DNA of 40,107 nucleotides. Origin: a virus. Position 1 is the first letter of the stretch; every line of letters starts with the position of its first letter. Both the position numbers and the translations under genes were made by a program. The notes beneath the pieces are model-generated. The model saw nothing but the letters and a program-made list of their open reading frames with translations, had not been told where the DNA came from and did no database searches. Shown one piece after another: positions 24-37,688 of this stretch. Location: IMG/VR virus record IMGVR_UViG_3300049255_000036, positions 1-40,107 of that record, one strand, 5' to 3'.

Positions 24-182
24 ATGCTCAATGAACGGCTCAAACGTGTTGCCAAGCTTATACATCACGGGTTAGATCATTCGTGTATAGCCGAGGCGCT
101 TCATATAAGGCCAGATACTGTAAAGAAGTACCGCCGAATGCTGAAGGACAAAGAACGTGCTGAAAGTCGACCTGAACAATAA
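24..182 (+). CDS. Small helix-turn-helix-like protein (52 aa, possibly cut at N-terminus)
   Basis: ATG at 24 opens a 52-codon frame ending at the TAA at 180-182. Residues about 15-40 (IAEALHIRPDTVKKYRRML within them) read like a helix-turn-helix of the sigma/LuxR type: an alanine-rich first helix, a turn at HIRP and a basic recognition helix. The frame stays open upstream to base 3, so the real start may lie before the window. It overlaps the next gene by 26 nt. A DNA-binding role is inferred from the pattern only. Confidence 0.45.
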   Translation: MLNERLKRVAKLIHHGLDHSCIAEALHIRPDTVKKYRRMLKDKERAESRPEQ

Positions 183-6382: not shown

Positions 6383-6432
6383 TATAGCAGGTTGATCTCG
6401 GCACTACTTACGGTCTGAGATAACCTGCTATA
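6383..6432. repeat. Long inverted repeat (16-bp stem with one bulge)
   Basis: TATAGCAGGTT (6383-6393) is perfectly complementary to AACCTGCTATA (6422-6432). After a single bulged G6394, ATCTC (6395-6399) pairs with GAGAT (6417-6421), leaving a 17-nt loop. It fills the gap between two plus-strand genes and stops just before the SD (GAGG 6436-6439) of the gene at 6445. There is no T-run on either side, so an RNA-processing site, operator or cruciform is more likely than an intrinsic terminator. Confidence 0.65.
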
Positions 6433-6444
6433 CACGAGGTATGT

Positions 6445-7202: not shown

Positions 7203-9476
7203 ATGCAAGCACAAGCCATTATAAACGGCCGGCAGCTGCAGGTACTAGCAGCGCTTGGCATCCACTGGCGGCAAAGCTCTAAACACATACGCTGTCCATT
7301 TCCCGACCATGACGACCACAATCCGTCATGGCGGTGGGATGATGCGTCCGGCAAATGGTTCTGCACCTGTGGAAACGGCGACGTGCTCGACGCGGTTCAG
7401 CGCATGCGCGGAGTTGCCTTTAAGGCGGCGGTGGCTTTTGTTGAGCAGGTTGTCGGCGGCACAGCTGCGCCGGCAGCCGCGGTTGCAGAAAAGCCAGCAG
7501 TGAAACGGGGTAAGCAGGCACCGGCGGCAGCTAACGGCAGCGCGGTGGCCACCGCGCTGCCGACACGGCAGCAAATGAGGCTGGCAGACTACGGCGAGCC
7601 TGTGCAGTTCTGGGTCTACCACAACGCCGCCAGGCAAATCGTGGAGGTGCGCGCTAGGTACGAATACCTAAACGGAGGCACCGAACGCAAGAAGGTCGTG
7701 CTGCCGTGGACGTGGAACGGCAAGCGCTGGGTCAATAAGGCCGCGCCGGAGCCGCGGCCACTTTACATGCTGCCGCTGCTGCTCGGCGAGCCACAGCACA
7801 CCGTGCTGCTGGTCGAAGGCGAGAAGTCGGCCGATGCTGCGGCCGAGCTTTTTCCGGCGTACTGCGTTACCACCACGGCAGGCGGGTGTAAGGCGGCCAA
7901 GGGTACCGACTACGCGCCGCTGCGCGAGCGTGACGTTATCATATGGCCGGACAACGACGAGCCTGGCCGCAAGTACGCCGAGACGGTTGCAGCGCTGTGC
8001 AAGCAAGCCAGCGCGGCGTCGGTGCGTATCGTTGACGTGCCACAAGACTGGCCCGCAGGGTGGGACTTAGCCGATACGGTGCCTGAAGGAGCGGAGCCGG
8101 ATCTCGGCGCCTATCTGGAAGAGGCGTACCTGTGGCCACCGAGCGCCGGCGGAAAGGAGGGAAACACCGGCACCGGGAGCGATCACGACTCCGCTAACGG
8201 TAATGTGGTGCAGTTTCCAAAACGCGGCAAGAGGTCAAAACCGTTCAGGGCAAAGGCATCGGCCGAGCAGCTCGAAGGGTTTAACAAGGACGAGGACAGC
8301 GGCTGGCTCTACAAGGACGTCGACAACGTTCTGATAGCCATCGAAAAGCTGGACGTGCAGATCGGCTACGACGACTTTTCACACAAGTACACGGTGTCGG
8401 GTCTCGATGGATACGGCAATGTATTGGACGACGACGCGCTGGCCGAGCTGTACCTACGGATCTGGAGGCAGTTCGGCTTAAAGCTGTCAAAAAGCGAGAC
8501 AGACCTGATAGTGCTGGCCGAAGCGAGGCGGCGGCGCTCGCACCCCGTCAAGGCATACCTCAACGGCATCGAGTGGGACGGGGTCGAGCGCATCGACGAA
8601 TGGCTGTCGACGTACCTGGGAGCCGAAAACAACGACGTCAACCGCGCGGTCGGTCGCGCCGTGCTTATCGCCGCCGTGCGCCGGGTGCGCAAACCAGGCT
8701 GCAAGTTTGACCCGATGATGGTTCTGGAGGGTCCGCAAGGGTGCGGGAAGTCAAGCGCGATCGCCGCGCTGGTGCCAGACCCAGACTGGTTTACCGATAG
8801 CGTTACCCTGCAAATGGATCGCAAGGAGGTCATGGAGCAAACCGGCGGCAAGTGGCTTGTCGAATTCAGCGAGCTAACCGGCATGCGACGGGCGGATCTT
8901 GAACACGTCAAAGCGCTCGTGAGCCGGCAATTTGACGAGGCGCGACTCAGCTACGCGCGGTTTTCTACGAGGCGGCCCCGGCAGTGTGTGTTTATCGGCA
9001 CCACCAACGAATCTCAGTATCTGATCGACGATACCGGCAACAGGAGGTTTCTGCCGGTGCGCGTCGGCACCGTCGATTTGGCCGCTCTTGTGCGCGACCG
9101 AGATCAACTCTGGGGTGAGGCCGCACACTTCGAAGCGCTTGGAGAGTCGCTGGAATTTACGGCCGACATACGCGAAAAACTGGCCGTCGCACAGGCCGAT
9201 CGAGAGGCTCACGACGAGTGGGAATTCGTCGTCCGGGACTGGCTCAACGAGCACCATCCGCCGCCGGATTTGGCCTACACAGGTAGTGCACTAGTACCTG
9301 TCGTCACTATGGGTTTAGTAGCCGAAGGCGCGCTGAAAATCGAAAAAGGCCGGCTAGACGCTGTTTCGCAGAAGCGACTGATGCGCGCCATGAAAAAAGC
9401 CGGCTGGTATAAGGCGCATGCCTCAAACGGCAAAAACCTGTGGAAAAGGCGCGAAAACGGCGATTTAGTGCTCTAA
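7203..9476 (+). CDS. Primase-helicase: CHC2 zinc finger, Toprim and VapE/VirE ATPase
   Basis: A 757-aa fusion. Residues 31-60 hold a CHC2-type zinc site (CPFPDH, then FCTCGNGD) as in DnaG/gp4 primases. A Toprim-like part follows with EGEK at 205-208 and WPDNDEPG near 248-255. After a linker (about 320-350) comes a virulence-associated-E ATPase with Walker A GPQGCGKSS at 510-518, LVEFSEL as likely Walker B, and the TNESQYLIDDTGNRRF sensor region typical of VapE. It probably primes and unwinds phage DNA. ATG 7203 is preferred, with GAGAGG about 12 nt upstream; the frame extends to a TTG at 7170. No DNA polymerase is found in the window. Confidence 0.94.
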   Translation: MQAQAIINGRQLQVLAALGIHWRQSSKHIRCPFPDHDDHNPSWRWDDASGKWFCTCGNGDVLDAVQRMRGVAFKAAVAFVEQVVGGTAAPAAAVAEKPAVKRGKQAPAAANGSAVATALPTRQQMRLADYGEPVQFWVYHNAARQIVEVRARYEYLNGGTERKKVVLPWTWNGKRWVNKAAPEPRPLYMLPLLLGEPQHTVLLVEGEKSADAAAELFPAYCVTTTAGGCKAAKGTDYAPLRERDVIIWPDNDEPGRKYAETVAALCKQASAASVRIVDVPQDWPAGWDLADTVPEGAEPDLGAYLEEAYLWPPSAGGKEGNTGTGSDHDSANGNVVQFPKRGKRSKPFRAKASAEQLEGFNKDEDSGWLYKDVDNVLIAIEKLDVQIGYDDFSHKYTVSGLDGYGNVLDDDALAELYLRIWRQFGLKLSKSETDLIVLAEARRRRSHPVKAYLNGIEWDGVERIDEWLSTYLGAENNDVNRAVGRAVLIAAVRRVRKPGCKFDPMMVLEGPQGCGKSSAIAALVPDPDWFTDSVTLQMDRKEVMEQTGGKWLVEFSELTGMRRADLEHVKALVSRQFDEARLSYARFSTRRPRQCVFIGTTNESQYLIDDTGNRRFLPVRVGTVDLAALVRDRDQLWGEAAHFEALGESLEFTADIREKLAVAQADREAHDEWEFVVRDWLNEHHPPPDLAYTGSALVPVVTMGLVAEGALKIEKGRLDAVSQKRLMRAMKKAGWYKAHASNGKNLWKRRENGDLVL

Positions 9477-9667: not shown

Positions 9668-9696
9668 TCTATACACTCTGTAGGGTCTTTTGGCAA
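9668..9696 (-). promoter_or_regulatory. Candidate sigma70-type promoter pointing left
   Basis: Read on the minus strand, TTGCCA (9696-9691) and TATAGA (9673-9668) are separated by exactly 17 bp. It would start transcription near 9661 into the non-coding region and antisense to the end of the primase gene. The -10 lies within one of the recurrent GTGTATAG words. Confidence 0.4.
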
Positions 9697-9814: not shown

Positions 9815-10234
9815 TTACGCGGCCACGCTGTACCGGCCGTCATCGTCCTTTGCGAGCACACCTTTAGCGTGTAGGCGCCTCAACGCTGTGTAGACGTTGG
9901 CCTTTACGATGTCGCCTCGATAGCCGACGTCGACCAGCGTATCAAGCACGGCACTCGCGGCCGCAGGTTGGCCGATCTTGTTTAGAGCGGCCACCGCAGC
10001 GTCTGACAAGGACAGCTCGGTCGTGACGCCTTCTGTGGCGTTGCCGGTAGCCTTGCGCTTCGGGGGTGCCTTGGTATCGGCCACTCCGTTGATATAGCGC
10101 TCCAGCGCCTTCGTGCGCGCCAAGATGCGGGTCAGCCGCGCAATGGTCTCGGCGGCCTGCTTCTTGGCCAGCTGTGCCTCTTGCAGCTCGGCCTCCCAGG
10201 CTTGGATCTGGTCGGGTGTGATGCTGATGGTCAT
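9815..10234 (-). CDS. Winged-helix protein with N-terminal coiled coil (139 aa)
   Basis: The start at 10234 (minus) has a strong AAGGAGA about seven bases upstream and overlaps the preceding gene as ATGA; the longer frame to 10387 lies inside that gene. Residues 5-45 form a helix likely to be a coiled coil (QAWEAELQEAQLAKKQAAET). Residues about 75-139 read as a winged helix: SDAAVAALNKIGQP, SAVLDTLVDVGY, NVYTALRRLHAKGVLAKDD, GRYSV. It is probably a sequence-specific regulator, the last gene of the minus-strand operon. Direct targets are unknown. Confidence 0.75.
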   Translation of the reverse strand: MTISITPDQIQAWEAELQEAQLAKKQAAETIARLTRILARTKALERYINGVADTKAPPKRKATGNATEGVTTELSLSDAAVAALNKIGQPAAASAVLDTLVDVGYRGDIVKANVYTALRRLHAKGVLAKDDDGRYSVAA

Positions 10235-10443
10235 GCTGAGTCTCCTTGTTTGGTCACGTATTCCATGGCGACGCTGCGCTCGACCTTGATAATCCGGAAG
10301 CGGTCCCACTCGTGATCGAGCCGGCGCTCCATCGCGGTGGAGATGGCGTGGTCGTAATCGACGTAGATACCGGCGCTGGTCTTCCACAAATCAACACTAT
10401 CGCGCTGGTATTCGATAACGTATTGCGGCTTGAATGTGCTCAT
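10231..10443 (-). CDS. Hypothetical protein (70 aa)
   Basis: Starts at 10443 (minus) with GAGG about eight bases upstream. Its stop overlaps the start of the winged-helix gene by 4 nt, so the two are probably translationally coupled. The product has alternating beta and helix segments (PQYVIEYQRDSVDLW, SAGIYVDYDHAISTAMERRL) and no known motif. Confidence 0.68.
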   Translation of the reverse strand: MSTFKPQYVIEYQRDSVDLWKTSAGIYVDYDHAISTAMERRLDHEWDRFRIIKVERSVAMEYVTKQGDSA

Positions 10444-10453
10444 GGTGGGTGCC

Positions 10454-10810
10454 TCAATTGGGGAAAGCGAACCGTTCAGAAATTTTAGGCGTGTCCGTTT
10501 CGCCTAAAAGGTATTCGACGTCGACGACGTCGCCGTCGTTAATTTCATCGAAGTGCTGCTCAATCCATCTGTGCGCCTCCGGCCACGTGCGCGCACCGCC
10601 TTCCCAGCTGTACGGATCGTACGTGGCCGCGCCGCCGCGCATCGGCAGCAGCATCACAAGCGGATAGCCACTAACCCCTTTGCCGGGGTTACGGCCATAG
10701 CCGGTGCGCGATAGCAGGTATCTCTCGGCTTCCGAGCTGGCGACCATTTTGATTGCGATCGCCGGCATGAAGGTATCCCTGTCGCGAGTCTCAATCGCTT
10801 TGATAATCAT
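10454..10810 (-). CDS. Conserved hypothetical protein (118 aa)
   Basis: The start at 10810 has an excellent SD, AAGGAGGT, seven bases upstream on the minus strand. The protein has the phrases RDRDTFMPAIAIKM, RYLLSRTGYG, DPYSW, RTWPEAHRWIEQHF and DVVDVEYLLGETDTPK. This pattern resembles uncharacterised proteins of proteobacteria and their phages. The SD strength suggests high expression. Function unknown. Confidence 0.8.
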   Translation of the reverse strand: MIIKAIETRDRDTFMPAIAIKMVASSEAERYLLSRTGYGRNPGKGVSGYPLVMLLPMRGGAATYDPYSWEGGARTWPEAHRWIEQHFDEINDGDVVDVEYLLGETDTPKISERFAFPN

Positions 10811-10821
10811 AATGACCTCCT

Positions 10822-10992
10822 TCAGTGAAGCTTGCCTGATGGCAGTGACTGCCGGTCCATGCCGGCGTTCGCGTGTTTGCTCAGATCAAAAAGCCGATCA
10901 AACACGCGCTTGCGTTCGGACGGAGTCATCTCGGCAAGCAGCTTGAGTCGTCCGTCCTCGTGCCGTGGCCATGTGCGTTTGTTCTCTGTCAT
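10822..10992 (-). CDS. Hypothetical protein (56 aa), first gene of minus-strand operon
   Basis: The start at 10992 (minus) is preceded by AAGGAGACTCACC, almost identical to the SD region of the winged-helix gene. The peptide is charged and helical (RLKLLAEMTPSERKRVFDRL). It is the first gene of the four-gene leftward operon and diverges from the ribbon-helix-helix gene at 11148. Confidence 0.65.
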   Translation of the reverse strand: MTENKRTWPRHEDGRLKLLAEMTPSERKRVFDRLFDLSKHANAGMDRQSLPSGKLH

Positions 10993-11087
10993 GGTGAGTC
11001 TCCTTGGCACCTCTTAAGCTCTTGGTCCTCTGAATTCACGCTTAAAGCCTCCATGTGTTGTACACCGCGCCACCGTACTCCTGTGTA

Positions 11088-11110
11088 TAGACATGTCAAG
11101 ACATGTCTAG
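11088..11110. promoter_or_regulatory. Tandem palindromic operator between divergent genes
   Basis: AGACATGTCA (11089-11098) is followed directly by AGACATGTCT (11099-11108); each contains the palindrome GACATGTC. TTGACA lies across the site on the minus strand (11098-11093). It lies in the 155-bp gap between the leftward operon and the rightward ribbon-helix-helix gene. Tandem palindromes at 10-bp spacing are typical of Arc/Mnt/CopG operators. Confidence 0.55.
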
Positions 11111-11147: not shown

Positions 11148-11330
11148 ATGGCGAACGAACGGCAGCAGATAAACGTACGCGTGGACGACGATTGGCTGGA
11201 GGCGCTCGATGCGTGGATCGCCGCGCAGCCGGTGCCGCCGTCGCGGAGCCAGGTGGTGATGACGGCGGTACGGCGGTTTATCGAGGACAACCCGCCGCCA
11301 GTGCCAAAGGCGCCGAGATCCGCCAAATAG
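11148..11330 (+). CDS. Ribbon-helix-helix (CopG/Arc-type) regulator (60 aa)
   Basis: The protein from ATG 11148 has the ribbon-helix-helix pattern: strand QQINVRV (residues 6-12), helix DDDWLEALDAWIAAQ, then turn and helix PPSRSQVVMTAVRRFIED. The longer frame from 11103 would put the operator inside the gene and lacks an SD. The SD for 11148 is itself weak, suggesting low expression. It probably binds the tandem palindromes about 40 bp upstream and controls itself and the divergent operon, as Arc and Mnt do in P22. Confidence 0.75.
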   Translation: MANERQQINVRVDDDWLEALDAWIAAQPVPPSRSQVVMTAVRRFIEDNPPPVPKAPRSAK

Positions 11331-12409: not shown

Positions 12410-12420
12410 GTCTTTTTTTG

Positions 12421-12449
12421 TTGAGTGGTAGCAATACACGGTGTATAGA
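12421..12449 (+). promoter_or_regulatory. Sigma70-type promoter of the candidate small RNA
   Basis: TTGAGT (12421-12426) and TATAGA (12444-12449) are separated by exactly 17 bp, placing the start near 12456, at the foot of the first hairpin of the RNA. The spacer and -10 contain the inverted repeat ATACAC-G-GTGTAT (12434-12446), which could be an operator. Confidence 0.55.
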
Positions 12450-12452
12450 TTC

Positions 12453-12602
12453 GCTTGAGGCCGAGAACCGCGCGGCCTCAAGCCGGAAACGACCCCGTCG
12501 TTGACTGTTGCAAGCAAGGATGGTCGACGGGGTCGTTTTCACATCCCTCCATGTGGTCTTGCACGTCTTGTGCGACCCGCGCTTAACGGCGCGGGTTTTT
12601 TT
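12453..12602 (+). ncRNA. Candidate structured small RNA (about 150 nt)
   Basis: No credible ORF, yet nearly every base can pair. Hairpin 1: 12453-12463 with 12473-12483 (11 bp, 9-nt loop). Hairpin 2: 12485-12500 with 12525-12540 (16 bp with one G-U, 24-nt loop). Hairpin 3: ACAT/ATGT (12541-12554). Hairpin 4: GCAC/GTGC (12561-12573), extended by GTC/GAC. Hairpin 5 is an intrinsic terminator with seven T. A promoter fits just upstream. I do not recognise it as a known family. It could act as an antisense or protein-binding RNA. Confidence 0.55.
12575..12602 (+). terminator. Rho-independent terminator
   Basis: CCCGCGC (12576-12582) pairs with GCGCGGG (12589-12595) around TTAACG, extended by an A-T pair, and is followed by seven T (12596-12602). 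A textbook intrinsic terminator on the plus strand. Confidence 0.88.
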
Positions 12603-12629
12603 CTACCTAGCTATCTTGCTTCGGTTGTA

Positions 12630-12653
12630 TTATACATGCCTAACCATGTATAA
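12630..12653. promoter_or_regulatory. 9-bp inverted repeat upstream of 12669
   Basis: TTATACATG (12630-12638) and CATGTATAA (12645-12653) form a perfect repeat around CCTAAC. It lies 15 bp before the start codon at 12669 and overlaps the recurrent TGTATTATAC word (12626-12635). Its symmetry and place suggest an operator controlling the gene at 12669. Confidence 0.5.
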
Positions 12654-12668
12654 CAGCTGGAGTCGGCC

Positions 12669-13159: not shown

Positions 13160-13234
13160 TGCGGAATGGAGCAGTAGCAGCTCGCCAGGCTCATAACCTG
13201 GAGGTCGCAGGTGCGAGTCCTGCTTCCGCACCCA
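13160..13234 (+). tRNA. tRNA with CAT anticodon (initiator-like Met)
   Basis: A full cloverleaf can be drawn: acceptor TGCGGAA (13160-13166) with TTCCGCA (13224-13230); D-stem GAGC/GCTC; anticodon stem CCAGG/CCTGG with loop CTCATAA (anticodon CAT at 13192-13194); variable AGGTC; T-stem GCAGG/CCTGC with loop TGCGAGT; discriminator C13231 and encoded CCA (13232-13234). The A11-T24 pair and overall similarity are like bacterial initiator tRNA-fMet. Position 1-72 is a T-A pair, the D-loop is short without the usual GG, and position 73 is C, all unusual. tRNA-Ile2 with lysidine is an alternative. Confidence 0.85.
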
Positions 13235-13691: not shown

Positions 13692-14140
13692 GTATTCAGA
13701 TGGTGGACGATGTGAAGACCGTTACACCATCTGCACCGGTCGCACAGCTTGCAGTTACAACCGAAAAGAAACCGCCTCACCGTTTCCAGCCCGGTCAGTC
13801 AGGAAACCCCGCCGGACGGCCTAAAGGAGCGCGAAGCAAGCTAGGCGAGGCATTTCTTGAGGCGATGCTCAAGTCCTTTGAAGAGGGCGGCGCTGACGCA
13901 ATTATGCGCGTTAGGGACCGGCAACCTGAGAAATACTTATCTGCTCTCGTTTCTATTTTGCCTAAGCAAGTTGAGATCGACGGCGACGTGCAGGTAAAGG
14001 TTACCAGCGCGGTCGACAGCCTCGTAGCAAAGCTCGCGGCTCTCAACGCGCGCGAAAAGGAATATGAAGCGGATCGCACGGAGGCCGGCATGAAGACGAT
14101 TGAGCATCAGCCGCTTACTGTTGAGAAGGTCAGCACGTGA
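13688..14140 (+). CDS. DUF5681-containing protein, candidate small terminase subunit
   Basis: Residues about 30-50 contain FQPGQSGNPAGRPKGARSKL, the signature of DUF5681, a domain often found at the N-terminus of phage TerS-like proteins. The rest is helical (GEAFLEAMLKSFEEGG, SAVDSLVAKLAALNAREKEY). TerS recognises viral DNA and loads TerL. TerL lies 4.1 kb downstream, an unusually long separation, so the role is likely but not certain. The ATG overlaps the upstream stop. Confidence 0.75.
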   Translation: MSIQMVDDVKTVTPSAPVAQLAVTTEKKPPHRFQPGQSGNPAGRPKGARSKLGEAFLEAMLKSFEEGGADAIMRVRDRQPEKYLSALVSILPKQVEIDGDVQVKVTSAVDSLVAKLAALNAREKEYEADRTEAGMKTIEHQPLTVEKVST

Positions 14141-14211
14141 CGCTGGCTGTTTTCCTGTGGCTTGTGTGGCTGGTCATTGTAGCGGCTGCTACATCGGATC
14201 GGAAAAGGTAA
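14137..14211 (+). CDS. Single-span membrane microprotein (24 aa)
   Basis: GTG 14137 overlaps the stop of the DUF5681 gene by 4 nt (GTGA) and has GAGAAGG about eight bases upstream. The product is one hydrophobic helix (LAVFLWLVWLVIVAAA) with a basic tail (DRKR), giving an N-out/C-in single span by the positive-inside rule. The SD and overlap argue for translation. Function unknown. Confidence 0.45.
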   Translation: MTLAVFLWLVWLVIVAAATSDRKR

Positions 14212-14625
14212 CACGCATAAGATGGCAGCTGTGTAACTTTGCGTTTCGAGTTTTCGGCCGGACAAGGATCAGGACCTCGCCTCGGACTGCTTATTTGGCG
14301 CCAAAACCCTAGCCTCACGCTCGCGCTATATAAATCTACAGCCGCCGCGGTCGTCACAGTTCGACCATAATTTGACCGCATAGAGACCACATTCGGATCG
14401 AGCGTCTTCTCCTGTATTAGATGCTCCCATACAATAAAGCCTTATGTATCAATGGTTTATGATACAAAGCATGCTTTAGGCGGACGCTAAGGCGGACGAT
14501 ACGCCGCCGGTTGACTCACCCTCTACTTGTGACCACCCGGCCCAGGAAAACGGGACACCGTATCGCGCTAATTCACTGGTGCGCAGGAATTTTTGAAAAT
14601 CCGGATTTGAGTGTGTTTTTAGTGC
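14212..14625. other. Non-coding region with palindromes
   Basis: No credible ORF. Notable are the inverted repeat TGTATCA-N8-TGATACA (14445-14466), the perfect 12-bp palindrome AAAGCATGCTTT (14466-14477), a GGCGGACG doublet (14479-14498) and the first copy of a 45-bp direct repeat. The palindromes touch each other, suggesting an operator or recombination site just upstream of the repeat-flanked cassette. Confidence 0.5.
14496..14540 (+). repeat. 45-bp perfect direct repeat, left copy
   Basis: Identical in all 45 positions to 15201-15245; begins ACGATACGCCGCC and ends GACCACCCGG. It carries the imperfect palindrome GGTTGACTCACC. Sequence outside the copies is unrelated on both sides. Together they enclose a promoter and two small genes. 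Confidence 0.9.
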
Positions 14626-14654
14626 TTGACAACTACGCGCAATGAGCGTATATA
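14626..14654 (+). promoter_or_regulatory. Strong sigma70-type promoter
   Basis: TTGACA (14626-14631), perfect for -35, and TATATA (14649-14654) are 17 bp apart. Transcription would start about 14661, 58 nt before the start codon of the gene at 14719. This is the best promoter match in the window and gives the cassette its own transcription. Confidence 0.7.
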
Positions 14655-14718
14655 TCAAGTCATGGTTAGCACGTCGCTAACCGGCGCGCCTCGGCAAATC
14701 AGGGGCTTGGAGATGAAG

Positions 14719-14961
14719 ATGAGCAACTACAACGACCTGTCCCTTTACCTTGTGTCCGAAGGCGAGGTAAAGCCTGCTACTGTTGATACCAAGTACGACG
14801 GCGCCAACTCCATCCTGGTCGCCGCCACTTCGGAGGACGGCGCGATGAAGGTCGCTGCTGCCTACGACGAGGGACTTGCGCAAGCCGACAACATCTTTTG
14901 GGGCGGCGCGACTATAGCCGCTGTCACGCTGCGCGACCGCGACACAGGTCTTTATGCCTAA
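14719..14961 (+). CDS. Hypothetical cassette protein (80 aa)
   Basis: ATG 14719 is chosen because GGAG (14708-14711) is seven bases upstream; ATG 14713 would be too close and the frame start at 14626 precedes the promoter. The product begins MSNYNDLSLYLVSEGEVKPA and is acidic with alternating beta and alpha elements. Its family is not recognised. First gene of the two-gene module between the 45-bp repeats; overlaps the second by 8 nt. Confidence 0.65.
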   Translation: MSNYNDLSLYLVSEGEVKPATVDTKYDGANSILVAATSEDGAMKVAAAYDEGLAQADNIFWGGATIAAVTLRDRDTGLYA

Positions 14962-15184
14962 CCACCCTAACCGAGGCCCGAAAGGGCCTCGTTCCAATCC
15001 TGCGTCCGCAGACATCATTGCAGGCCGAGAGGCCGCTGGTTTGACGCAGACGCAGGCCGCTGGCCTGGTGTATAGCTCTCTGCGGACATGGCAGCAATGG
15101 GAGGCCGGAGACAGGCGGATGCACGCCGGGCTGTGGGAGCTTTTTAGGCTAAAGACTGAGCTCATTGAGCGCCCCGCGAAGTAG
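14954..15184 (+). CDS. Xre-type helix-turn-helix protein (76 aa)
   Basis: Residues about 18-65 form a lambda-repressor-like HTH: ADIIAGREAAGLTQTQAAGL, YSSLRTWQQWEAGDRRM, then LWELFRLKTEL. The N-terminal 17 residues are a Pro/Gly/Arg-rich arm encoded over a GAAA-capped hairpin (14972-14991). It overlaps the preceding gene by 8 nt. It may regulate the promoter at 14626 or act on phage/host genes. Confidence 0.82.
   Translation: MPNHPNRGPKGPRSNPASADIIAGREAAGLTQTQAAGLVYSSLRTWQQWEAGDRRMHAGLWELFRLKTELIERPAK
14972..14991 (+). other. GNRA-capped hairpin at start of the Xre gene
   Basis: CGAGGCCC pairs with GGGCCTCG around GAAA, an 8-bp stem with a stable tetraloop, only 18 nt after the start codon of the Xre-type gene and 11 nt after the stop of the previous one. 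Only two T follow, so termination would be weak; translational damping is an alternative. Confidence 0.5.
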
Positions 15185-15200
15185 TCGTTCCCACACTCAA

Positions 15201-15245
15201 ACGATACGCCGCCGGTTGACTCACCCTCTACTTGTGACCACCCGG
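15201..15245 (+). repeat. 45-bp perfect direct repeat, right copy
   Basis: Second copy of the 14496-14540 repeat, 705 bp downstream and 16 bp after the Xre-type gene. It is followed by a CCCGG/CCGGG hairpin with a T-rich loop (15241-15258). Confidence 0.9.
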
Positions 15246-15300
15246 TTTTTCTACCGGGGGTAGGTAGGTGCCACCCCCCCCTCAATAGGATTTCTTTTGT

Positions 15301-15510
15301 TTAGCCTAGTAGCGGACTCGCAGGCGATTCCAATTTTAAAGTAATTAAAAAGTTATAAATCAGGGATTGTTGCGCGCTCCCAGCGAGTCTCGCCAAGCTG
15401 CAGGCTTTTAGCCGTTCCCAAATTTTAAAAAAATAAATTTTAAAACGGTCGTAACCCTGTCCGCACTTTGCGCACTTCGCTTGCTTGCCACTCGGCGACC
15501 ACTCGCACAT
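15301..15510 (-). CDS. Possible small zinc-finger-like protein (69 aa)
   Basis: The minus-strand frame from ATG 15510 has C2, C13, C16 and C37 in an order (MCEWSPSGKQAKC, AKCG, then AC) like small phage zinc-binding proteins. The second half is encoded by an AT-rich island and looks less protein-like. There is no SD next to the ATG. The rest of 15246-15518 otherwise holds only the AT-rich island with two copies of AAATTTTAAAA. Could be a decayed gene or chance. Confidence 0.33.
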   Translation of the reverse strand: MCEWSPSGKQAKCAKCGQGYDRFKIYFFKIWERLKACSLARLAGSAQQSLIYNFLITLKLESPASPLLG

Positions 15511-15518
15511 TATACGCC

Positions 15519-15620
15519 GTGTATAGACGTTCTGCTCCCCCGAACGGCACGCCATCTATACACCCCCGGATAGGTGCTGCGTCCGTCGCTTATCCTATGC
15601 TTGCGACATCCTATCCGGGG
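15519..15620. repeat. Double hairpin / back-to-back inverted repeats
   Basis: Two inverted repeats abut exactly. First: GTGTATAGA (15519-15527) with TCTATACAC (15555-15563), and inside it CGTTC/GAACG (15528-15546). Second: CCCCGGATAGG (15564-15574) with CCTATCCGGGG (15610-15620), and inside it GTCGC/GCGAC (15585-15607). It lies between an AT-rich island and the J-domain gene. Possible uses are origin, cruciform, or structured RNA leader. Confidence 0.7.
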
Positions 15621-15646
15621 TCCGCTAATTTGTAAAAGGCTCGACC

Positions 15647-16267
15647 ATGCAAGATGCCGACCTTTACGCTGTGCTGGATGTGCCTCGCGAGGCAACAACC
15701 GCCGAAATACGGCGCGCATACCGTCGCAAAGCCAAAAAAGCGCACCCAGACAACGGCGGCACTGCTCATGAGTTTGACGCGCTCAACAAAGCGCACCGCG
15801 TGCTAAGCGACGACACCACTCGCGCACGCTACGATCAGACCGGCGAAGCAGAGGCACCGCAGCCGGACGATCTACAAACCGCCGCTCTCGAAATGATAAG
15901 CCAGTCCCTTTCAAGATACCTGCTGGCCGAAGAAGACATCGCCGAGCGCGACCTTGTTACGGAGATGGCGACCTGCTTTAGCCTAGAGCGGCGGAACGTG
16001 CAAAAAGAGCTGCGCACCTTGCAGTCAGCAAAAGCCAAAGCAGAAAAAGCAGCCGAGCTGTTCGAAAAGAAAAGCGAAGGCGACAATGTGATGCTTCGCA
16101 TCGCAAACTGGCACATTAAGACGATCGTCCAAAACATTGCCAGCGGCGAGCGCGTGCTGAGCCGCTACGACCGCACGTTAGAAATTCTCAGCGACTACAA
16201 ATACAACTGCCGCAGCCAACGGTACGCGACACTACCGCCGCCTCTCGGCGCAGGAGGTCTGTGGTAA
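15647..16267 (+). CDS. DnaJ-like J-domain protein
   Basis: Residues 1-63 are a clear J domain: YAVLDVPREATTAEIRRAYR, the HPD motif at 33-35, and FDALNKAHRVLSDDTTRARYD. J domains stimulate the ATPase of DnaK/Hsp70. The C-terminal 140 residues are helical with a likely coiled coil (LEMISQSLSRYLL, RTLQSAKAKAEKAAELFEKK) and are not a known DnaJ client domain; there is no Gly/Phe or zinc region. It would recruit host DnaK to a phage process such as replication-complex remodelling or assembly. Start ATG 15647 has AAAGG about ten bases upstream. Confidence 0.9.
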   Translation: MQDADLYAVLDVPREATTAEIRRAYRRKAKKAHPDNGGTAHEFDALNKAHRVLSDDTTRARYDQTGEAEAPQPDDLQTAALEMISQSLSRYLLAEEDIAERDLVTEMATCFSLERRNVQKELRTLQSAKAKAEKAAELFEKKSEGDNVMLRIANWHIKTIVQNIASGERVLSRYDRTLEILSDYKYNCRSQRYATLPPPLGAGGLW

Positions 16268-18248: not shown

Positions 18249-19649
18249 TTGACCTCACTAGCCGAGCGCTTGAGTCTTCTACCGGAAGACCAGCGCGCTG
18301 CGATGCTTGCCGAGCTTGGGGAAGACGGCGCTGAAGCACTGCTTTACAAATGGGAATTTTGGGGTCGGCCGGAGCAGTTGCCGCCGCCGGGTGACTGGAA
18401 TACTTGGCTCGTGCTTGCCGGTCGCGGGTTCGGCAAAACACGCATCGCGACCGAGTGGGTGCGCTCTATCGTTTGCGGCGATACCCCGCTGGCAAAAGGG
18501 ACGTGCAGCCGCATTGCCATCGTCGGTGAAACGACGTCAGACTGCCGCGACGTTCTGGTTGAGGGTGTGTCCGGCATATTAGCCGTACATCCGAAGGACT
18601 TCAGGCCATTATACGAGCCATCGAAGCGAAGACTCACCTGGCCGAACGGAGCGGTGGCAACCCTTTTCAATGCAACCGAACCGGACCAGCTACGCGGTCC
18701 GCAGCATGACGCGGCAATCTGCGACGAGCTGGCCAAGTGGCAGTTTCTCGAAGAGACATGGGATATGCTGCAATTCGGCTTGCGGCTTGGAGACCACCCG
18801 CGTCAGGTCATCACCACAACCCCGCGGCCACTGCCAAAAATCAAGGAGATCATGAACGACCCCGGCACGGTCGTCACGCGCGGCTCGACGTTCGATAACC
18901 GGCTGAACCTGCCGCCGAAGTTCATCAAGACCATTGCCGAGCGCTACGAAGGTACTAGGCTCGGCCGGCAGGAACTTTACGGCGAGATCTGCGACGACGT
19001 ACCCGGCGCACTTTGGACCCGCGCTATGCTCGATGGTTGCAAGCTTGGCAAACGAGACGAGCTTCCGGCCATGACCCGCGTCATTGTGGCGATCGACCCC
19101 GCCAACAAAGCAAGCGCTGACAAAGACGACACGGCCGAGACCGGCATCGTTGCTGTAGGCATAGGCACAGACGGCAAAGGGTACCTCATACACGATGCAA
19201 GCTGCCGACTAAACCCCGAAGGCTGGTCGCGCACCGCGCTAGCGGTGTACGACCGTTTCGACGCCGACGCGATAGTCGCCGAGGTCAATCAAGGCGGCGA
19301 CATGGTCGAGAGCGTTATCAAGTCGCAGCGCCGTGACGTAAAAGTCATCAAGGTCCGCGCCAGCCGTGGCAAGGTAACACGAGCCGAGCCAATTAGCGCG
19401 CTTTATGCGCAGGACAAGATACGCCACATCGGCAGTTTTCCGGTGCTTGAGGACCAGATGGTGCTCTTTACCCCGTTCGGCATTGTAGGAAACAGCACCG
19501 CAGACCGCGTCGACGCATTGGTCTGGGGCTTTAGCGAACTTTTTCCGCGACTAATAAAGCGCGCTGAATGGGATGAATACGAAGAAGAGTACGAGCCTTC
19601 ACCCATAACACACCGCTTTAGCGGTCGTTCTAGGTATACGGGTTACTAA
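18249..19649 (+). CDS. terL: Terminase large subunit (TerL)
   Basis: ATP-driven DNA packaging motor and nuclease. The 466-aa protein has Walker A AGRGFGKTR at 57-65, Walker B AAICDE at 155-160, a likely coupling TTTPRP near 190, then an RNase-H-like nuclease region with AIDPA near 279, AEVNQGGDMVES near 345 and DRVDALVWG near 424. It resembles the TerL of gene transfer agents and related alphaproteobacterial phages. The start is TTG 18249: the codon just before is an in-frame TAA and the next Met is 19 codons later. The SD is weak. Confidence 0.95.
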   Translation: MTSLAERLSLLPEDQRAAMLAELGEDGAEALLYKWEFWGRPEQLPPPGDWNTWLVLAGRGFGKTRIATEWVRSIVCGDTPLAKGTCSRIAIVGETTSDCRDVLVEGVSGILAVHPKDFRPLYEPSKRRLTWPNGAVATLFNATEPDQLRGPQHDAAICDELAKWQFLEETWDMLQFGLRLGDHPRQVITTTPRPLPKIKEIMNDPGTVVTRGSTFDNRLNLPPKFIKTIAERYEGTRLGRQELYGEICDDVPGALWTRAMLDGCKLGKRDELPAMTRVIVAIDPANKASADKDDTAETGIVAVGIGTDGKGYLIHDASCRLNPEGWSRTALAVYDRFDADAIVAEVNQGGDMVESVIKSQRRDVKVIKVRASRGKVTRAEPISALYAQDKIRHIGSFPVLEDQMVLFTPFGIVGNSTADRVDALVWGFSELFPRLIKRAEWDEYEEEYEPSPITHRFSGRSRYTGY

Positions 19650-23068: not shown

Positions 23069-23323
23069 CTGAAGATAGAAAAACCCGATTTCGAGGCATG
23101 GATCAACGACCCGTGCACGAAAGCATTGTTTCGCAAGCTCGAAAAAATTGCGGACAATGCACAGAAAAAATGGCTCGATATGTCATTTTCTCCGAGTAAA
23201 CCGGTGCAGGATATCGATTTGATACTTCTCACTAAGCTACGAACTCACAACAGTTTATGCCGACAGATACTTGGCATGGAGTATGAAGATTTAATACATG
23301 AACAAGACGACCAGCGAAGTTGA
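23069..23323 (+). CDS. Hypothetical head-region protein, apparent CTG start (84 aa)
   Basis: The frame is closed upstream by the previous gene's TAA (23063-23065). From CTG 23069 it reads LKIEKPDFEAWINDPCTKAL and on, a natural protein start. No ATG, GTG or in-frame alternative occurs until TTG 23126, which would cut off the conserved-looking acidic/aromatic N-terminus. Product is helical. It overlaps the GroES-like gene by 26 nt. The start choice is inference. Confidence 0.6.
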   Translation: MKIEKPDFEAWINDPCTKALFRKLEKIADNAQKKWLDMSFSPSKPVQDIDLILLTKLRTHNSLCRQILGMEYEDLIHEQDDQRS

Positions 23324-23651
23324 AAAGATACCTTCGCAAGAAGAAATTGGCATCTGGCTTTTGGATTATAAGGTTCTTATAGAGCTGGATGACCCTGTAG
23401 CGCGGATCGGTAGCATTCTTATACCGGAATCGGCGCGCGAAGACGTCACCACCGGCACTTTTATTGCGTGCTCGTTTAATGCTTGGGATTACCTCGACGG
23501 CGTACCGGCCGAAGACCTCCCGCAGCCTGGCGATCGTGTTTTTTGCACGAAATACGCCGGCCGCGACGTGAAAGCCAAGAACGGCAAGACGTACAGGCTC
23601 ATGAACGATAAAGACATTTTTGCAATTCTCGATTTCCCTAAGCAGCAATGA
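23298..23651 (+). CDS. GroES-like co-chaperonin
   Basis: The 117-aa product follows the GroES fold: YKVLIELDDPVARIGSILIP (first strands), EDVTTGTFIA (after the mobile-loop region), PQPGDRVFCTKYAG, and a KNGKTYRLMNDKDIFAIL end. GroES caps the GroEL chamber; phage versions such as T4 gp31 adapt host GroEL for folding capsid protein. Its place between the portal and scaffold/capsid genes fits that role. The mobile loop is short, so GroEL contact is likely but unproven. Confidence 0.85.
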   Translation: MNKTTSEVEKIPSQEEIGIWLLDYKVLIELDDPVARIGSILIPESAREDVTTGTFIACSFNAWDYLDGVPAEDLPQPGDRVFCTKYAGRDVKAKNGKTYRLMNDKDIFAILDFPKQQ

Positions 23652-36222: not shown

Positions 36223-37688
36223 TGGCTGACTACTCCCAACCTTACATGCCGAGCGTCTTGAACGACGCAAACGCGCTGGCGACCATGCAGTCGCTGATGC
36301 AGCGGCAAAGCCAGAACCAAGCAGCCATGAGTGCCAGCGCGTTGCTGGCAAACGGCGATTATGACACAGCCGAGCAGTTGTACCGCAGCGTCGGCATGGA
36401 CGACCTGGCAAACCAAGCGCGCCTGCGCGGTGTCAGCATTAAAGCTGGCAACGCTGCGGCAAACGGCGACTATCAAGGCGCCGCCGACCACCTGCTGCGC
36501 AGTGGTTACCTTGACCAAGCGCAGACCCTCAAAAAAGAGCACCTCGAAGACGTCAACCGTTTATTCGGCATCGGCGCACAGATCGCGCAACTGCCGGACC
36601 TTACGCCGTTGCAGTGGAAACAGTTTCTTGGCCAAGCCAAGCAGGACGGCTTCGATACTTCCCAATTCGAGGATTTTAAGACAGGTCCGCAGCTGCTCAC
36701 TGCCTATGCAGGCAAAGTCATGGACGTTAATAAGCAGCGGCTGGAGCAGCTTAAAGCGTTTCCGCCGCATTCAGCCACTATGGCTGGCCAAGACGGAAAC
36801 CCAGACACAGAAGGTCTAGCGGTCTATAACCCGAACAAAAACGCTTATGACTTTACACCCGGCACGCCGGGATTGACCGTAGATGCCAAGGCGATCAACG
36901 GCAAGGCCGGCAGCGATAGCTCGACACAGATCGAGCGCGTTGCTACAGCCTACCAAGACGACTGGAAAAAGACCCATCCAAATGGTCCAGAGCTTGGTCG
37001 CAAGGAGGCGCTCAACGCGGCCAGCATCGCCATTCGCAATAACAGCGGCACCGGTATAGATTTTGAACTCGGACCGGACGGACAACCGCGCCTCAAGACA
37101 TCCGGTCAGCAAGGCACCACAGGTTACGCTCGAACGGAACAGGGTGCGTATAACCTTGCCGCGAACAGAGAGGCTGCCAAGTTCGATATCGGCACCATGG
37201 CGCGCAAGACCTTGGGTAACGTGATACAAGAGCATAGCGAAATGCTCGACCCGTTGACGCAGCGTCCCGACTTCGAGGAGGCCATGCGCTTCCTGCACAC
37301 CCCGGATGGTGTGCGCTTTTGGGGCGGCGAAGCGTTGCCGCTTGGAACGGTGCCGCAGACCGCAAACGATATTGTCATGACCGTAAAAAGCTTGGCGCAC
37401 GAGTACGGAAACTTTGTTGCGGCCGGCCACAAGGGTGCTATGTCCGAGCGCGAAGGTCGCGACCTTGAGAACATTGTCGGCCAGCTTGAGAACGCACCCA
37501 CCGGCGAGGCATTTCGCCATAATCTTGAGACGCTTCGCGGCCTAGCCAACGCATTTCAACACGTGCCGACGCTTGGGTCGCAGGGTGTCTCAAAACCGTC
37601 GTCAGCATCAAACCCGACCGATAAGAAGACCATCGACGGGGTCACCTATGAAAAGCGGTCTGACGGCAACTGGTATCGCGTACAGTAA
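36222..37688 (+). CDS. DNA ejection protein (488 aa)
   Basis: Shares its first base with the upstream stop. Large, mostly helical, with two repeated ALLANGDYDTAEQL-like units in the first 100 residues (also AAANGDYQGAADHLL). It lies between gp7-like and the giant last gene. Best read as a P22 gp20-type internal protein by position, size and composition; no motif proves it. It has a positively charged C-terminus (YEKRSDGNWYRVQ). Confidence 0.68.
   Translation: MADYSQPYMPSVLNDANALATMQSLMQRQSQNQAAMSASALLANGDYDTAEQLYRSVGMDDLANQARLRGVSIKAGNAAANGDYQGAADHLLRSGYLDQAQTLKKEHLEDVNRLFGIGAQIAQLPDLTPLQWKQFLGQAKQDGFDTSQFEDFKTGPQLLTAYAGKVMDVNKQRLEQLKAFPPHSATMAGQDGNPDTEGLAVYNPNKNAYDFTPGTPGLTVDAKAINGKAGSDSSTQIERVATAYQDDWKKTHPNGPELGRKEALNAASIAIRNNSGTGIDFELGPDGQPRLKTSGQQGTTGYARTEQGAYNLAANREAAKFDIGTMARKTLGNVIQEHSEMLDPLTQRPDFEEAMRFLHTPDGVRFWGGEALPLGTVPQTANDIVMTVKSLAHEYGNFVAAGHKGAMSEREGRDLENIVGQLENAPTGEAFRHNLETLRGLANAFQHVPTLGSQGVSKPSSASNPTDKKTIDGVTYEKRSDGNWYRVQ

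Follow-up and report, generated by a model that had tools for sequence, protein, structure and literature searches.

Genes of the window and features of the gap upstream of the J-domain gene

The window analysed here (40,107 bases) comprises an entire IMG/VR virus record. Its right end is incomplete, as a gene that starts at 37688 continues past it. Small early genes are present to the left of a J-domain protein gene, and portal and structural genes are also encoded. The genes needed for what follows are:

7203-9476, primase-helicase gene, accompanied by an SSB-like protein gene
9815-10992, minus strand, operon
11148-11330, ribbon-helix-helix-like gene
15647-16267, plus strand, J-domain (DnaJ-like) protein gene, 206 aa, HPD motif intact (Pfam PF00226, E 3e-18)
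18249-19649, terminase gene

The window also carries a tRNA-Met gene (13160-13234) and, among the head genes, a GroES-like (Cpn10) protein (23298-23651), which together with the J-domain protein makes two host-chaperone partners in one phage. Immediately 5' of the J-domain gene lies a non-coding gap of 462 bp (15185-15646), in which the following were located:

15328-15443, AT-rich tract, 35% GC, lower than any other 116-bp stretch in the record
15420-15430 and 15435-15445, two copies of AAATTTTAAAA, 15 bp apart, the sole two in the window
15485-15513, plus strand, candidate sigma-70-type promoter TTGCCA-17-CATTAT (9/12 consensus match), start expected near 15520
15519-15563, inverted repeat 1, GTGTATAGA (15519-15527) and TCTATACAC (15555-15563), 9-bp arms, 27-nt loop, inner CGTTC/GAACG
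15564-15620, inverted repeat 2, CCCCGGATAGG (15564-15574) and CCTATCCGGGG (15610-15620), 11-bp arms, 35-nt loop, inner GTCGC/GCGAC

The ribosome-binding site sits 3' of inverted repeat 2, before the J-domain gene. The initial annotation had placed an AT-rich segment at 15330-15445 with two AAATTTTAAAA copies, and both observations were confirmed (GC 0.353; copies at 15420 and 15435 and nowhere else in the window). With 35% GC over 116 bp against a mean of 57%, the tract is a modest outlier, since it ranks 2nd to about 7th at other window lengths. The two inverted repeats had been described as touching at 15563/15564, which is correct to the base, and the arms of both are perfectly complementary with zero G-U pairs. 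The window has 10 perfect inverted repeats with arms of at least 11 bp and loops of at most 60 nt, where dinucleotide shuffles give 0.68 +/- 0.75, while abutting pairs with arms of at least 8 and at least 9 bp arose in 2 of 100 shuffles; the outer arms and the abutment of both repeats are thus beyond chance. The 5-bp repeats inside them do exist as described, although equally good inner stems turn up on shuffling the loops (8.5% and 12% of cases) and in stretches drawn at random from the window (14% and 29%). They are thus within chance, and the nesting is no evidence of design. Inverted repeat 2 was also considered as a terminator and rejected, as no T run follows it. This phage has many inverted repeats in its intergenic DNA.

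A repeated word in the early intergenic gaps

The word GTGTATAG occurs eight times in the window when 0.48 copies are expected, and all eight copies lie within the first 15.6 kb. Seven of them are intergenic, where the intergenic gaps make up about 10% of the sequence. The other viral loci that we fetched hold eight copies in 1.42 Mb, or about 0.23 per 40 kb. Two of the eight copies are the outer arms of inverted repeat 1, so that the overlap of repeat and word seen in the initial annotation is confirmed. Five others lie at distant intergenic sites:

83-90, plus strand, 5' of the gene at 157-702
6428-6435, minus strand, overlapping an 11-bp inverted repeat (6383-6393/6422-6432) just 5' of the ribosome-binding site of gene 6445
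9669-9676, minus strand, in the gap separating convergent operons
11083-11090, plus strand, overlapping a 22-bp palindrome, TAGACATGTC/GACATGTCTA, 5' of the ribbon-helix-helix-like gene
12441-12448, plus strand, in the gap 12410-12668, ahead of two inverted repeats and a hairpin resembling an intrinsic terminator

The remaining copy, at 15068, is in the coding sequence of what is probably a horizontally acquired cassette and is also present in a 97%-identical relative (L084); it may be coincidental. Two of the surroundings deserve description of their own. The inverted repeat before gene 6445 (6383-6432) consists of TATAGCAGGTT/AACCTGCTATA with an inner ATCTC/GAGAT and adjoins the ribosome-binding site. 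The gene-free array at 12441-12604 combines GTGTATAG with a pair of perfect inverted repeats, of 11 and 14 bp, and with the terminator-like hairpin and its T run, and is a possible small RNA.

Most copies of GTGTATAG are single, have no pairing partner and occur in both orientations relative to the genes, and therefore a DNA site fits better than an RNA stem. The distribution points to the site of a phage-specific regulator. Probable protein binding at these words, which had been suggested from their overlap with the repeats, likewise gains support from the enrichment, the intergenic bias and the restriction to this phage. We also tested GTGTATAG as a -10 box, which was unconvincing: a good -35 element at 17 bp is found for only two of the eight sites (P about 0.07 for the set). 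Another word, CGTATAAT, is likewise enriched and was dropped, being mostly within genes.

A candidate promoter and operator leader

We give about even chances to the likeliest reading, in which the stretch is an ordinary promoter/operator leader of an operon starting with the J-domain gene. Under this reading, 15246-15646 would be the leader, and the operon would start at the J-domain gene (15647) and run on into the genes for the terminase and structural proteins. GTGTATAG(A) would be the DNA half-site of a phage-encoded regulator acting at several intergenic sites of the early region. In the gap, two such putative half-sites face each other 27 bp apart, directly 3' of the candidate promoter at 15485-15513, and a regulator binding both would control the start of the J-domain operon. 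The candidate regulator is the ribbon-helix-helix-like protein (11148-11330), which has a site in its own upstream gap, or another small early protein. A secondary effect on mRNA stability is plausible as well, since transcripts from the candidate promoter would carry both hairpins at their 5' end. The arms free of G-U pairs and the equal fold scores of the two strands also favour this reading, as does the location in the 462-bp gap directly 5' of the J-domain gene. The repeats, the enrichment of the word and its placement in the intergenic DNA of the early half are observed; the promoter, the identity of the regulator, its binding and the J-domain-to-terminase operon are inferred.

Several observations weigh on the other side. 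The candidate promoter is weak, because three such sites occur in 3 kb against 1.8 in shuffles. The site at 9669 is flanked by the ends of convergent genes, not a place where one would expect a promoter operator, and relatives of the ribbon-helix-helix protein do not have GTGTATAG upstream, though these relatives are distant. The search for relatives of the leader used DNA similarity among phages, the J-domain protein (against viral contigs and phage records), the primase, the neighbouring gene 16910 and the exact pattern of inverted repeat 1, and none of these routes led to a relative with a comparable leader. The sole J-domain relatives are at most 44% identical and have no comparable leader, with a different gene order in one of them (L083), and terminase relatives have the packaging gene alone in common with the window. 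The combination GTGTATAGA..TCTATACAC was found in six unrelated contigs with zero genes in common with the window, consistent with chance plus ordinary hairpins. As no leader relative was found, there is no site conserved across phages, which counts against the operator reading.

The arrangement resembles the early operator sets of phages (lambdoid repressor operators; the ribbon-helix-helix operators of Arc and Mnt) in that a short word is repeated across the intergenic DNA of the early half, in part as inverted half-sites near a gene for a small DNA-binding protein. It differs from them in that the regulator is only a candidate, the facing half-sites are widely spaced, at 27 bp, and one site falls in the gap of two convergent operons. 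A bolder version, which we hold to be rather unlikely, is that GTGTATAG(A) is the element of an undescribed phage regulator that would co-ordinate the early intergenic sites and, via the pair at 15519-15563, switch the J-domain/packaging operon, the arms doubling as 5' mRNA hairpins.

The two hairpins as a possible structured leader RNA

The two adjoining hairpins might instead act on the mRNA, by protecting its 5' end, directing RNase III-type processing or binding a regulatory protein, rather than as DNA sites. Their position suits such a role, as the inverted repeats lie 26-128 nt 5' of the J-domain ATG and leave the ribosome-binding site free; gene 6445 is preceded by a similar two-level hairpin, and the frequency of intergenic inverted repeats in this phage bears in the same direction. 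The RNA fold of the leader also beats 197 of 200 shuffles. However, the fold of 15446-15650 is equally good on the opposite strand (z -2.58 on the plus strand, -2.75 on the minus strand, against shuffles), and therefore it cannot separate RNA from DNA function. Moreover, the outer arm of inverted repeat 1 is a word that is mostly unpaired elsewhere, and an Rfam search gave no family match for the leader. The structured leader of the J-domain gene put forward in the initial annotation thus stands as regards position and a better-than-shuffle fold, and fails as regards strand specificity; it is possible, and we put its chance at something like one half of that of the operator leader.

Hairpins processed by RNase III in T7-like phages are alike in being intergenic, in lying 5' of coding sequence and in their lower stem, internal loop and upper stem. 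The upper stems here differ in being weak and not significant, and no conserved counterpart of the present hairpins was found.

The stretch as a proposed replication origin

The initial annotation had also raised a replication origin, made of an AT-rich unwinding element with a cruciform or initiator sites. An AT-rich tract does adjoin the inverted repeats, and there is a real turn in GC skew 1.0-1.3 kb upstream: third-codon-position skew shifts sharply between 14.1 and 14.7 kb, from +0.017 to -0.158 over about 14140-14720 (best break 14724; none of 1000 block permutations), and the cumulative skew peaks at 14273, near the candidate origin. The absence of a skew turn, which the initial annotation had named among the results that would refute an origin, is therefore not what was seen. 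However, this extreme is a cumulative maximum, with the polarity of a terminus, where an origin would be expected at the minimum; it may just reflect the passage from early to late gene modules, and it was read on a fragment, in which gene 37688 runs off the end, and not on a full genome. Neither a DnaA-like box (at most one mismatch to TTATNCACA) nor an iteron array was found in the region, and the replication genes (SSB, primase-helicase) are 6-10 kb distant. Folded as single-stranded DNA the stretch is unremarkable (z -1.28). Cruciform extrusion is unlikely with loops of 27 and 35 nt. The origin with its cruciform is therefore not supported, and we regard it as very improbable. Theta-type phage origins such as lambda ori share with this region an AT-rich tract near inverted repeats; unlike them, the region has no iterons, no adjoining initiator gene and the opposite skew polarity.

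A neighbouring acr-aca10-type cassette and its leader RNA

Upstream of the repeats lies a segment with its own relatives and features:

14496-14540 and 15201-15245, 45-bp perfect direct repeat
14599-15201, acr-aca10-type operon
14626-14654, promoter TTGACA-17-TATATA, containing CTACGCGCAATGAGCGTAT
14664-14712, conserved leader RNA: hairpin (14664-14682), then the near-invariant CGCGCCTCGG-N-CAGGGGC, then a ribosome-binding site
14719-14961, 80-aa gene, candidate anti-defence gene
14954-15184, gene for an Aca10-like HTH protein (match to solved chain 7xi5_A, E 1.4e-23)

Other viral contigs are homologous over 14599-14727 and 14960-15207, and the similarity ends at 15201-15207. This end point and the 45-bp direct repeat indicate that the segment between the repeats is probably an acquired cassette. 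The same two features suggest that the stretch downstream is a recombination border, and thus that its inverted repeats might be an inert, incidental product of recombination at the end of the cassette (15201), beside the 45-bp repeat. We consider this improbable, as the inverted repeats begin 270 bp past the cassette border and GTGTATAG is common to distant intergenic sites of the same genome. The flanking direct repeat was found in none of the other cassette relatives. The cassette ends in three of these (L084, L085, L089) resemble terminal inverted repeats, while several related HTH cassettes (L090, L099, L104, L159) have at their borders sequences that, by eye only, resemble the attC ends of integrons (TCTAAC...GCGTTAG); the acr-aca10-type operon may thus also travel as a gene cassette.

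The accession 7xi5_A occurs in the Aca10 paper (PMC9410881). The published Aca10 operator, AATACGCTCATTGAGCGTATT, is present in a Pseudomonas citronellolis locus (L181) whose protein shares 64% identity over 66 residues with the HTH protein. In the window, CTACGCGCAATGAGCGTAT (14633-14651) matches 16 of the 19 bases of the published minimal Aca10 operator. The position of the 80-aa gene is held by unrelated small genes in most relatives, which is the acr-aca pattern and makes it a candidate anti-defence gene.

The CGCGCCTCGG-N-CAGGGGC leader is shared by 28 of the 78 viral relatives and occurs in genome loci L176-L178 too. Its hairpin was scored over 18 distinct stems, and the mean pairing score is 3.41 for a stem's own arms against -0.98 for swapped arms, with no more than 0.8 in 200 swaps; this strongly supports covariation of the arms and a real pairing. 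Rfam gave no family match for this leader in the window or in four relatives, and a limited literature search found no published description of it.

Implications

The practical gain is that the region upstream of the J-domain gene is no longer annotated as an origin. If the operator reading is true, an uncultured phage would have a compact regulatory code, readable from sequence alone, by which early control is kept apart from the late operon. The cassette and its conserved leader RNA matter more than the stretch that had been proposed as an origin, and they suggest that anti-defence operons of the acr-aca10 family may carry an RNA-level element beyond the known Aca10 DNA operator.
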